Program-made: the position numbers and the translations under genes
The notes under the pieces: generated by a model
The model's database searches: none
What the model was told of the DNA's origin: nothing
Seen by the model: the letters and a program-made list of their open reading frames with translations, nothing else
Shown: piece by piece, positions 63,101 to 63,516 of the stretch
Layout of the letters: each line of letters begins with the position of its first letter
Numbering within the stretch: position 1 is the stretch's first letter
From: Amphibalanus amphitrite
Taxonomy: Eukaryota; Arthropoda; Thecostraca; Balanomorpha; Balanidae
Assembly: GCF_019059575.1 (NCBI RefSeq)
Contig: NW_024883453.1
Coordinates: 27,089 to 91,088, forward strand
Direction: 5' to 3'
Length of the DNA: 64,000 nucleotides

Positions 63101-63516
63101 ACCGGTGGGTGCGAACTGACCTGTTGGGTACAAGTAGGTGAAGACTGACATGTTGGGTAGACGTGAGTGCGGAATGACCTGTAGGGTAGACGTGAGTGCG
63201 GAATGACCTGTAGGGTAGACGTGGGAGCGGACTGACCTGTAGGGTAGACGTGGGTGCGGACTGACCTGTAGGGTAGACGTGGGTGCGGACTGACCTGTAG
63301 GGTGCACGTGGGTGCGGACTGACCTGTAGGGTAGACGTGGGTGCGGACTGACCTGTAGGGTGCACGTGGGTGCGGACTGACCTGTAGGGTAGACGTGGGT
63401 GCAGTCGTCGGTGTAGTTGTTGACCAAGTCCAGCTGGGGGAGCTCGATATTTTCGTCCACGACTAATGGAGTAATCTTTTCCCAAACAAATACGAGGTCG
63501 TCCGTCGTATAAGACA
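45154..63516 (-). CDS. pHCl-1: pHCl-1-like Cys-loop anion-channel subunit (5' end beyond window)
   Basis: Exons in transcript order: 63516-63382, 49082-48982, 46868-46708, 46138-45989, 45324-45154, all GT-AG with matching phases. They encode SYTTDDLVFVWEK...ELPQLDLVNNYTDDCTHVYPTG, then NFTCLEVVFKFKRRLGYYLF with M1, [19 protein letters not shown] (M2 with the anion-type PAR), the M2-M3 linker [20 protein letters not shown]3 FVFLALMEYALVNIVLG, a proline-rich M3-M4 loop, and M4 LFPATFLMLNVTYWLVNVDNL-stop. This is closest to arthropod pH-sensitive chloride channels. The extracellular N-terminal exons, including the Cys-loop, lie to the right of the window. Intron 1 here is 14.3 kb and contains other coding sequence. 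Confidence 0.9.
46869..48981 (-). other. pHCl-1-like intron 2
   Basis: GC-rich patch at 47,500-47,770 and AT-rich remainder. ORFs on both strands lack domains. Confidence 0.45.
49083..51222 (-). other. Start of the 14.3-kb pHCl-1-like intron
   Basis: Mostly AT-rich, with a GC-rich patch at 50,130-50,330. No exon recognised. Confidence 0.45.
51223..53871 (-). CDS. Large disordered Gln/Ser/Pro-rich coding exon, unrecognised
   Basis: The open frame of 882 codons ends DPELQYIDDRYDF-stop. Composition is Ser, Gln, Pro, Gly, Arg and Trp-rich with scattered acidic patches (KELEDELVDIENEQQKN near residues 620-640; EQWAENYNEWG) and no domain, signal peptide or membrane segment. The C terminus has basic tracts (RSAVRAAARPSRARS). 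Such length in one frame, with normal amino-acid variety in the middle third, argues for real coding. The frame stays open upstream of 53,871, so the true 5' border is probably a splice acceptor. It lies inside the pHCl-1-like intron, on the same strand and downstream of the EGF-repeat exons. It may be the cytoplasmic tail of that protein, or a separate gene. Confidence 0.6.
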   Translation of the reverse strand: MPARSADAHRLVVSADGRGGSAAINAAPRYRRAPEAGGEQHSRGDPARPSAAGTGTAPPDLRPWPPHGRQTTAAAKVVSASSVRGGLRTSSSGLQLRPDGRPWQCPPARPTLESSQHWPRDKPWGLYRESSVRLPGKVLPQEAHPYHSQPRPDPGGQWQPRQSISLEMQPLQQQNGAQFGGPYQQKGIGLDTRPAQQAARRPPATYFGGDPSEGRALPQEPVRYADHGQRSGPSTVPQPPRQQHGAPPSWDGSEPPKARGWGATEPPDGTVLWRSPLASWEELQVDQKFRAPQTRPADGVQMLDSYPRNITEPRPAAVDWRSQNDGGQRRVSFADRSGPVTGGVSRPSAAGSTEVNGYRLGTEPSNRAAPIATEPTDSRWRMFDASASYGGIANDDITQPAVFDNKGNDVLRHSRAPRTSGDVQSFSPEDSSKAWEDRQNGVVGLQRGPSDGRWSYSPSATDQPRPSTDGQQQSFDRAPWEGAAPASWTGETENGDRWRTDPATAHKAAYMTTDGIEYEQWAENYNEWGVPQQQDSVTQHGAVQVGDMQYFEEGQLISDRPKQCSVTLTPGTALSSEGYTSANNQATDEFKTYTKASDTYVDMGAYQHPSKELEDELVDIENEQQKNARNSITSIVSKGSIRNDAPLSWDTGAGMGVAPADRGSQKAGTSETHPGQPTAEDVSLTCRDQPTANTLVTDGGQVTASATVIASTGKASVNAIDQLDQGNAFVIPRNQSTPTKPTVASEVKLTATTSATVGDLSSKPPIIPRRSSSVDWRSSAGRAVPPTASGSILPVPSVPDGPSREGAATDSAALRTSDGQRQNGTLPSHTELAAKGCSVTNEAAQRDERGRSAVRAAARPSRARSVPLPDPELQYIDDRYDF
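54449..54620. repeat. (TCTG)n and (CT)n microsatellite
   Basis: About seven TCTG units followed by ~130 bp of CT repeat with rare interruptions. Confidence 0.97.
54641..54735 (+). repeat. tRNA-Ser-like SINE head or pseudogene
   Basis: A-box TGGCCGAGTGG (54,649) and B-box-like GGTTCAAGCCC (54,702) have tRNA spacing with a long variable arm as in tRNA-Ser. The acceptor stem ends do not pair (TTCTCCG against TGCGGGC), so a functional tRNA is unlikely. It directly follows the microsatellite. Confidence 0.55.
55181..55785 (-). CDS. Probable second exon (cytoplasmic tail) of the EGF-repeat protein
   Basis: A frame open from an acceptor-like AATTACTCAG before 55,785 reads TGGGGAGRPPGDLC, then VLTDSAPFTDESSIESTLAT, an Arg/Ser stretch (SRSRSRHRSRRRRRRHR) and an acidic-serine segment (SSMSDGSESGVSDESTVSGG). 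Two leading bases fit exactly the phase-1 donor at the end of the EGF exon (TCAG/GTATTC at 56,183). A possible donor CATG/GTGAGA lies near 55,289; otherwise the frame stops at 55,181. Basic then phosphoserine-like acidic clusters suit a juxtamembrane tail. Function unknown. Confidence 0.55.
56154..59852 (-). CDS. EGF-repeat single-pass membrane protein, large exon
   Basis: The 3.7-kb open frame starts with a signal peptide (MRWVQLCAIFASLIIGCSHW). A Cys-rich N-terminal region is followed from about residue 150 to 1050 by ten repeats of a two-module unit. One module is a canonical EGF (CLARSPCLNGGTC...CRCPPAWHGDTC). The other is a variant with DPC...CG-GW-C-RRDP...GYSCGC...PGW...DP-CV. A Pro/Ser and acidic stalk (PEDEDEEEP) leads to a transmembrane helix near residues 1111-1135 (YVFMLVGLLILLILLFLVCF), basic KLYRSRRRDRECEYLLKKAD, and CEPY/CEPYPAP repeats. 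The frame ends at 56,154, but a donor at 56,183 probably splices to 55,785. It looks like a cell-surface adhesion or receptor protein. I do not recognise the family. It is nested in the pHCl-1-like intron on the same strand. Confidence 0.85.
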   Translation of the reverse strand: MRWVQLCAIFASLIIGCSHWFPRTPEVKFYRLHRDLLKVTRASRCRTDVLRCGKQFPDRASCRLVVYREAGTAWLMPAGQSGRLRYCRCHPAWSGSRCQRAANPCQASPCAAGRRCVRSTTSATGYSCLCAGGDGNCSPVAARSPRLAGGTCRGRPCGVGWHCKEDPTQPAGYSCGCDRKPGYQPASETDPTCVRADLCTAHRPCRHGGTCLSLTGDYRCQCAPAWTGRSCEAPLNPCHDAELCTAGWTCRREPRSRAGYSCGCEEKPGWAPRSEDDPQCVLRDTCLARSPCLNGGTCESGPKDGFTCRCPPAWHGDTCEKPRDPCRTGNPCGETWKCHRDPDSPAGFSCNCGSRPGWAAKSEEDPRCAVSDPCLTGSPCLNGGSCQYLSPGEFNCQCRSAWTGRTCDVPRDPCGESDTCGAGWKCRRDPSAALGYTCGCDHRPGWRATSATDPRCVLVEPCRAKAPCGNGGTCVPTMEDGEPGFRCQCPLAWGGPVCAEPRNPCAAGDARCGAGWSCRRDETSKVGYSCGCETRRGWRPRSLDDPSCVRSDFCRVRRPCRNGGRCGPGTTTEPFTCRCLGGWQGPLCQQPRDPCRLGSPCGAQDTCRRNATARTGYSCHCELRPGYRPHSGSDPRCVLDDACLAQAPCLHGGSCTPGRAGKQSFTCTCTAAWSGDRCELPRDPCVQEPETVTRVCGAKSGCSRDTSSEVGFACDCDARPGWRRRSSADPGCVIQDACLALKPCRHGGTCRNVADQADGFYRCFCPPAWTGRNCSEPLDPCLDPKNVCNDGFRCRRNPDRPLGFSCGCDEKPGYRPSSPTNPECAVYDTCLAQEPCANGGLCSPVGERNYFCECKKSWTGRTCEIVLVPCEGIQHTCGTRWRCHVDSKQPLGFTCGCGWKPGWVAAEDGHCVVADACLAYAPCANGGTCSAEGGTLYSCRCRAGWGGTTCEAPVDPCTEGEPCGSGFTCRRDTQSSTGFSCDCERRPGWRRQSEDDPRCALYDVCLADPPCAAGARCLSLSGGAFRCVCPPERRGTLCEQPVVTSAPPAPVPPLVPALLPEPSSSPSPEDEDEEEPMGVLREQPAFKPVPDTPVLVGFRRFLDELAVIAPKLKYVFMLVGLLILLILLFLVCFACCRKLYRSRRRDRECEYLLKKADMDRRCEQYLQAKYGYGAPCEPAYPAADPCEPYPAPEPCEPYGEEDQTYWDSTEPYPSRQYVPEPSSGILQRRASF
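59853..60150 (-). promoter_or_regulatory. 5' flank of the EGF-repeat gene
   Basis: AT-rich DNA upstream of the signal-peptide ATG. The gene's own promoter must lie within the host intron. No core element was placed. Confidence 0.35.
60180..60310. repeat. Two ~70-bp tandem copies (TCGCCTCTGTATT)
   Basis: GATATCGCCTCTGTATTAAG and following GGATCGGTA, TTAGGATCGAGTATGTT phrases recur once with small changes. GGATCGAGTATGT itself appears three times. Confidence 0.65.
60419..60545 (+). ncRNA. Three abutting strong hairpins, structured RNA-like segment
   Basis: Hairpin 1 pairs AGTGAGT, GCC and GGGGCTG (60,420-60,437) with CAGCCCC, GGC and ACTCACT (60,461-60,479): 17 pairs with small bulges. Hairpin 2 pairs GCACCC with GGGTGC just after it. 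Hairpin 3 pairs GCTCCCT (60,499) with AGGGAGC (60,538-60,544), with a nested GGAGC/GCTCC. A smaller GGTC/GACC hairpin precedes at ~60,347. It could be the structured end of a retroelement or an RNA gene. Class unknown. Confidence 0.4.
61070..61581. mobile_element. MITE with TTAA target sites (third member)
   Basis: TTAA then AGGAAAAGGGCCACCTT at the left and AAGGTGGCCCCTTTCCT then TTAA at the right. No transposase. The AGGAAA start resembles the element at 9,837. Confidence 0.85.
61630..62529. mobile_element. DNA element, TAGGGGAGAGTGGGG termini (second copy of family)
   Basis: TAGGGGAGAGTGGGGCAAAG then CGGCCACCC at the left pairs with the complement at the right. Phrases GGGGCAAAGCGGCCACC or GGTGGCCACTTTGCCCC recur near 61,820-61,855, 62,132-62,161 and 62,485-62,520. 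There is no transposase. The first 15 bp equal those of the element at 1,354, while the internal phrase differs. Confidence 0.8.
62530..63100. other. Intron, nothing recognised
   Basis: No supported exon, RNA or repeat in this part of the pHCl-1-like intron. Confidence 0.45.
63103..63404 (-). repeat. 29-bp minisatellite carrying the exon's 5' splice donor
   Basis: Ten units at exact 29-bp spacing. On the minus strand each reads CACGTCTACCCTACAG followed by GTCAGTCCGCACC. The first copy is the true end of exon 63,382-63,516. In + coordinates the donor complement ACTGAC falls at 63376, 63347, 63318, 63289, 63260, 63231, 63144 and 63115; two units (63202, 63173) have AATGAC. Translation is open through the whole array in the exon's frame. 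Confidence 0.92.

Follow-up and report, generated by a model that had tools for sequence, protein, structure and literature searches.

The 64,000-nucleotide stretch analysed here (the window) comes from the barnacle Amphibalanus amphitrite (NCBI RefSeq assembly GCF_019059575.1, contig NW_024883453.1, positions 27,089 to 91,088 of the forward strand) and is the end of that contig, which we call C1956. Its minus strand carries a neurotransmitter-gated channel gene, gene A, in which the splice donor of the exon encoding loop C is part of a 29-bp unit repeated ten times. We found that three close paralogs of gene A (genes B, C and D) also have a tandem repeat across the donor of the same exon end, and that in one of them the number of donors differs between two putative haplotype contigs. 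We consider that these arrays are probably a recurrent, polymorphic minisatellite that spans the donor, and that the first donor is the main splice site. A first-pass annotation of the window had read the gene A array as a possible source of copy-number-dependent channel variants or as a means to tune splicing; that interpretation as a whole is partly supported, and the observation behind it is wider than was reported, as the three paralogs have repeats too.

The gene A repeat was recovered by Tandem Repeats Finder (TRF) as a 29-bp unit in 10.3 copies on the minus strand (90% matches, score 470), and the consensus unit was found at 8 places with at most 3 mismatches, which none of 100 shuffled windows equalled. 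The minus-strand sequence of the unit, GCACCCACGTCTACCCTACAG|GTCAGTCC, comprises 21 exonic bases from the exon end and 8 intronic bases from the intron start, and the array is edged on both sides by GCACCCAC, one copy of which is exonic and the other intronic. The ten exactly spaced copies described in the first-pass annotation are thus borne out, with the qualification that the ten include the genuine donor (first base at 63,381) and that nine are extra; GTCAGT is kept in eight of the ten donors, as had been noted, and the 7th and 8th read GTCATT. Copies 2 and 4 have a two-base variant but copies 1-6 are otherwise identical, and divergence is greatest in copies 9 and 10. The 9 donor positions have 3 substitutions and the other 20 positions have 15, numbers too small for a conclusion on donor conservation. 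Computed pairing with the U1 end was -8.0 kcal/mol for donors 1-6 and 10, -5.6 kcal/mol for donors 7 and 8, and -1.4 kcal/mol for donor 9, and six of the ten donors are identical across the 11 bases scored. A test of RNA structure in the gene A array found no unusual fold (z = +0.74).

That gene A encodes a channel of this family is supported by a match of its three joined exons to the neurotransmitter-gated channel transmembrane domain (PF02932, E 4.9e-20), and by a match to the ligand-binding domain (PF02931, E 4.6e-8, stops read through) upstream of the gene A exon on a second, collinear contig, C14, where a Cys-loop exon was also read upstream of the loop-C exon. The gene presumably is related to the HisCl/CG12344 group, and its neighbour at 40-42 kb, gene B, we take to be HisCl2-like; the label 'pHCl-1', given to gene A in the first-pass annotation, is doubtful. 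A PAR motif, typical of anion channels in this position (PMC2064938), precedes M2 in gene A. The closest solved relative is the glycine receptor (GlyR) alpha-3, and alignment to it places the exon junction between both loop-C cysteines, the site previously proposed for an insertion. Splicing from donor 1 yields the loop CTHVYPTGNFTC, which aligns without a gap to CTKHYNTGKFTC of GlyR (the single gap column lies a few residues upstream of the junction), and because of this gap-free alignment we reason that donor 1 gives the conserved channel.

In silico splicing of gene A from each donor after donor 1 either inserts residues or shifts the frame. Donors 4, 7 and 10 stay in frame and add 29, 58 and 87 residues, and donors 2, 3, 5, 6, 8 and 9 lead to a frameshift and an early stop inside the next exon; the in-frame additions and the frameshifts agree with what the first-pass annotation had predicted. 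It had further remarked that the coding frame stays open across all copies. The array is indeed open, in all three phases, but this gives no evidence for use: shuffling leaves all three frames open in 50% of 29-mers (and 52% of 34-mers), 8/87 single changes of the 29-mer create a stop, and the chance that none of the 18 differences among units is a stop is about 0.18 (by hand arithmetic, if independent), which is not rare. We therefore ruled out the open frame as evidence of translation; since half of the shuffled units are equally open, openness is uninformative on this point.

The loop-C exon peptide, searched against the 807.6-Mb genome (2,644 contigs), matched 16 places, which we paired by sequence into 8 genes on two contigs each; a weak match near C14:1737600 was taken as chance. 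Four of these genes are gene A and its close relatives B, C and D, and the remaining four are distant paralogs (E-H). In the loop-C exon, C and D are 71-73% identical to gene A and B is 57% identical; over the loop-C/M1/M2 region, identity is 86% for C vs. D, 81-82% for A vs. C or D, and 71-72% for B vs. the rest. A tandem repeat lies across the loop-C donor, at the same exon end, in gene A and in 3/3 of the other close paralogs, with units that are unlike in length and in boundaries (A, 29 bp × 10; B, 46 bp × 3.2; C, 17 bp × 1.9; D, 34 bp with one 41-bp spacing). No donor-spanning repeat was found at the loop-C exon end of the distant paralogs E-H. In gene B, both contigs have lost the second donor (it reads TTAAGC on one and ATAAGC on the other), and a stop appears within a few codons when the window's array is translated; the extra copies of gene B have decayed. 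The extra donor of paralog C, at +17, shifts the frame. Paralog D has three GTCAGT donors on one contig (offsets 0, 41 and 75) and seven on the other (offsets 0 to 211), and the matched pieces around the donors are 87-93% identical between the two.

The four close paralogs are arranged as two tail-to-tail pairs, A/B (window 46088-63516 on the minus strand and 40253-41729 on the plus strand) and D/C (C1526:63046 on the plus strand and C1526:95461 on the minus strand). Separately, one distant channel paralog (locus L034, contig C24 from 18089) has, at about 1450-1900, a second loop-C-like exon (VGYTTTEIGYIWK...) just downstream of the first, in the manner of a mutually exclusive exon pair.

A donor was scored as duplicated if the 20 bases around it matched a second place within 200 bases at 14/20 positions or more. 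All four loop-C donors of A-D reach this threshold (B at exactly 14, C at 17/20), as against 0/16 control donors. Twelve of the controls are eight donors of other A-D exons together with the loop-C donors of E-H, and four more belong to a gene of the window that we take to be PACSIN-like; they were placed by eye from homology, and one, 'B M3?', is uncertain. Random positions reached the threshold in 994/9,000 cases (11%), and TRF arrays of period 10-100 make up 3.3-6.5% of the five sequences. Donor-like motifs gave 14/206 for GGT[AG]AG and 0/9 for [AC]AGGT[AG]AGT; for [CA][AC]GGTCAGT, which is the arrays' own motif and whose places were not checked singly, the figure was 28/47. With gene A excluded, as it was chosen for its array, finding 3/3 paralogs at or above threshold at the 11% rate has a probability of ~0.001 (by hand arithmetic, and the paralogs are related, not independent).

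Contig C14 is collinear with the window at mostly 88-96% identity (matches >400 bases), from which we infer that C14 and C1956 are two haplotypes. If such contig pairs are haplotypes, copy number is polymorphic in paralog D, given its 3 vs. 7 GTCAGT donors. Several nearby minisatellites also differ between C1956 and C14, namely a 32-bp array (18.8 vs. 14.8 copies) and two 69-bp arrays (4.2 vs. 2.1 and 5.2 vs. 8.2). The copy-number variation proposed in the first-pass annotation thus finds a putative case in paralog D, but not in gene A itself, to which we return below.

We reasoned that the minisatellite probably arose from the exon-intron boundary itself, the 21 exonic and 8 intronic bases being tandemly copied by slippage or unequal exchange, a process that the flanking 8-base GCACCCAC on both sides probably aided. 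Arrays of this kind would have formed, or persisted with turnover of their units, at the corresponding loop-C donor of gene A and its three close paralogs. Donor 1 likely gives the normal channel, and the copies would act as decoys, several of them of equal computed U1 strength, that are used at a lower rate and yield mostly frameshifted transcripts, so that copy number may influence the amount of normal channel.

The nearest precedent is human ABCA7, in which a variable number tandem repeat (VNTR) in intron 18 has a 25-bp unit that contains the exon 18 donor and varies in copy number (PMC5954066). Besides canonical splicing, retention of exactly one unit, which puts the transcript out of frame, is reported there, and with longer arrays expression is lower and exon 19 is skipped more often (PMC5954066). 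The two systems are alike in that the unit holds the exon's genuine donor, the donors lie one unit apart, and use of the next donor keeps one unit and shifts the frame, for gene A in silico (PMC5954066). The likeness is one of anatomy, and ABCA7 is a single gene vs. the four paralogous genes here (PMC5954066).

A number of observations weigh against the reading of a polymorphic minisatellite with decoy donors. First, the gene A array is identical on both contigs over 63,024-63,850 as tested, with no length variation in gene A. This identity is not independent evidence, because the zero-difference stretch lies at the end of C1956, where the contigs may share sequence; for the same reason, we ruled it out as a sign of constraint. 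Nearby 26-bp and 27-bp arrays (1.9 and 2.6 copies) are likewise equal on both contigs. Second, 3/16 control donors (two of gene A, at its M2 and Cys-loop exons, and one of gene B, at its M1-M2 exon) reach 13/20, one below threshold, and a degenerate repeat (GTGTGAGTGGG...AGAGGAAGGGC) runs from the donor of the gene A M2 exon (window 46500-46707, minus strand); because this donor, at 13/20, sits in a visibly degenerate repeat, repeats beside donors may extend beyond loop C. Third, recurrence at one homologous position needs a cause besides random mutation, be it shared descent, a local hotspot, tolerance of loop C or selection. Fourth, the ABCA7 unit starts at GT and is called intronic, vs. a gene A unit with 21 exonic bases (PMC5954066). 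Finally, in ABCA7 the retention of one unit is independent of array length, nonsense-mediated decay is unaffected by it, greater length mainly increases skipping of the next exon, and alternative transcripts together exceed the canonical one in 90% of samples from one brain area (PMC5954066). Owing to these results on retention, decay, skipping and transcript share, the precedent bears out neither strict donor-1 dominance nor decoy and decay (PMC5954066).

An alternative, which we consider unlikely, is that the array works as a device for producing loop-C variants, in which the in-frame donors (4, 7 and 10 of A; +75 on one contig and +102 and +177 on the other of D) add 25-87 residues at the tip of loop C and alleles give different channels. 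Donor-spanning arrays in gene A and 3/3 of its close paralogs would fit such a device, as would the in-frame forms of paralog D, which end with an intact CTQQYATG-NFTC loop. Loop-C insertions through differential splice sites are, moreover, on record for pHCl (variant 4) of Tribolium and Apis and for GRD of Tribolium, and Drosophila GRD has 75 extra residues in loop C (PMC2064938). These insect cases arise by splice-site choice, with no tandem donor array in the cited passages, whereas in the barnacle such insertions are predicted from the array (PMC2064938). To be set against the device, reports on the pHCl loop-C variant found it neither in Drosophila (PMC2064938) nor among the predictions for Aethina tumida (PMC7017565). 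Moreover, the gene A in-frame forms lack a cysteine in the last repeat ahead of NFTC, the +17 donor of C is out of frame, one donor of B is lost and its array contains a stop, and the open frame is expected from composition. None of the unit lengths (29, 34/41, 17 and 46) is a multiple of three, and a test for an alternative-donor coding module found the reading frame not kept beyond chance, on the combined grounds of the shuffles, the non-triplet units and the frame-0 stop of paralog B. A bolder version, which strikes us as distinctly improbable, holds that these are self-renewing donor arrays at the loop-C exon of a channel family, in which the allelic number of donors sets both dose and loop-C length; each gene has its own repeat, and splice-site copy number would be a heritable dial on the diversity of the ligand-binding loop that selection has kept through gene duplication.

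Two further possibilities concern the splice sites themselves. Nine of the ten gene A unit junctions read AG|GT (the 9th is the exception), which puts an acceptor-like AG beside the donor, as at a recursive splice site or ratchet point. Intron gain is on record where AGGT segments, or stretches across or near a splice junction, were duplicated in tandem (PMC4974935, PMC2891723), an arrangement like the one here; alternative splice patterns at exon-intron tandem repeats have been described as well (PMC2812944). Yet a step of 29 nt falls short of the length of an ordinary intron, and by eye the unit has no branch-point-like sequence and is only moderately pyrimidine-rich upstream of the AG, leaving splicing of this kind a quite remote prospect. 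We give slender credence to the idea that a cluster of weak donors, with C at +3, aids U1 in locating the exon that precedes a long intron. The computed U1 pairing is indeed weak (-8.0 vs. -14.0 kcal/mol for a consensus donor), and most copies are found at long introns: the intron after the loop-C exon is 14.3 kb in A and 5.7 kb in D, vs. 2.9 kb in C, with two copies, and 0.5 kb in B, where the donor is GTAAGA and the copies have decayed. This series comprises four genes only, which are non-independent, and extra donors could equally compete. Lastly, an assembly artefact or an ordinary satellite, to which the position of the gene A array <1 kb from the end of C1956 might point, is scarcely credible, as the same array lies inside the 1.98-Mb contig C14 and paralogs on other contigs have different arrays at this exon end.

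Among other known repeats of this kind, genes in human segmental duplications have internal tandem repeats at exon-intron boundaries, with units of 30 bp on average, that have been linked to alternative splicing and new introns (PMC2812944). Those vary among near-identical recent paralogs, whereas the barnacle channels have different units at one homologous position of older paralogs (PMC2812944). Short-distance tandem 5' splice sites likewise are competing neighbour donors, with extensions of 3-6 nt being stressed there as opposed to a spacing of 17-46 nt and up to 10 copies here (PMC2423196). In our search of the open-access literature, no cys-loop channel with an array of tandem donors came to light; as far as this search shows, both the recurrence at one homologous donor across paralogs and the presence of coding sequence in the units are new.

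Returning to the donor-spanning minisatellite, ten similar donors in one intron, together with the apparent natural 3- and 7-donor alleles of paralog D, offer a ready-made test of positional choice among equal donors. Donor repeats recurring at a homologous exon end raise the question whether a hotspot, tolerance, shared descent or selection lies behind them. Should array length act on expression in the way reported for the ABCA7 VNTR, channel dose would vary heritably through these arrays. The features of genes A and B are collected in Table 1.

Table 1. Features of channel genes A and B, in window positions.
Feature	Position	Strand	Basis	Detail
Gene A loop-C exon (VSYTTDDLVFVWEKITPLVVDENIELPQLDLVNNYTDDCTHVYPT-G)	63382..63516	-	In silico splicing and GlyR alpha-3 alignment	135 nt, ends in phase 1
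Gene A ten 29-bp units across exon end and donor	63105..63402	-	TRF and unit comparison	
Gene A 8-base partial unit GCACCCAC	63105-63112	-	Array sequence	
Gene A donor 1, CAG|GTCAGT	63376..63381	-	GlyR alignment and in silico splicing	Yields conserved loop-C length
Gene A donors 2-10	63115..63352	-		29 bp apart; first intron bases 63352, 63323, 63294, 63265, 63236, 63207, 63178, 63149, 63120
Gene A next exon (NFTCLEVVFKFKRRLGYYLFHTYIPTCLIVIMS)	48982..49082	-	Splicing and homology match	Starts 49,082, phase 1
Gene A exon with M2	46707..46868	-	Pfam PF02932	
Gene A probable M3-exon start (FVFLALMEYALVNIVLG)	46088..46138	-	Weak match	17 residues, E 0.005
Gene B (tail-to-tail neighbouring paralog) loop-C exon (...DCTLAYST-G)	40253..40387	+	Homology match	
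Gene B 46-bp × 3.2 array across loop-C donor	40348..40491	+	TRF	Copy 2 has lost its donor and holds a frame-0 stop; copy 3 reads GTAAAA
Gene B exon with M1 and M2	40887..41063	+	Homology match	
Gene B exon with M3 (matched part)	41547..41729	+	Homology match; PF02932	

The 14-kb intron of gene A holds two long open frames on the strand of the gene. One (window 56154-59879, minus strand) is an uninterrupted frame of 1241 residues, a length also found on C14; it has EGF-like domains in 7 stretches (PF00008), and by eye a membrane-spanning segment as well. The second (window 51223-54006, minus strand) has 927 residues, and 922 on C14, and gave no Pfam match at E 0.01. Elsewhere in the window, the PACSIN-like gene that supplied four of the control donors lies at 15831-20567 (minus strand) and has an FCH domain (PF00611). 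The 32-bp array (window 29950-30564, plus strand) overlaps an open frame of 583 residues that ends at 30339. Finally, window 35741-38535 consists of tandem units of about 466 bp and 425 bp with 27-bp sub-repeats; C14 seems to be without this segment, as the flanking matches meet at C14:1774795.

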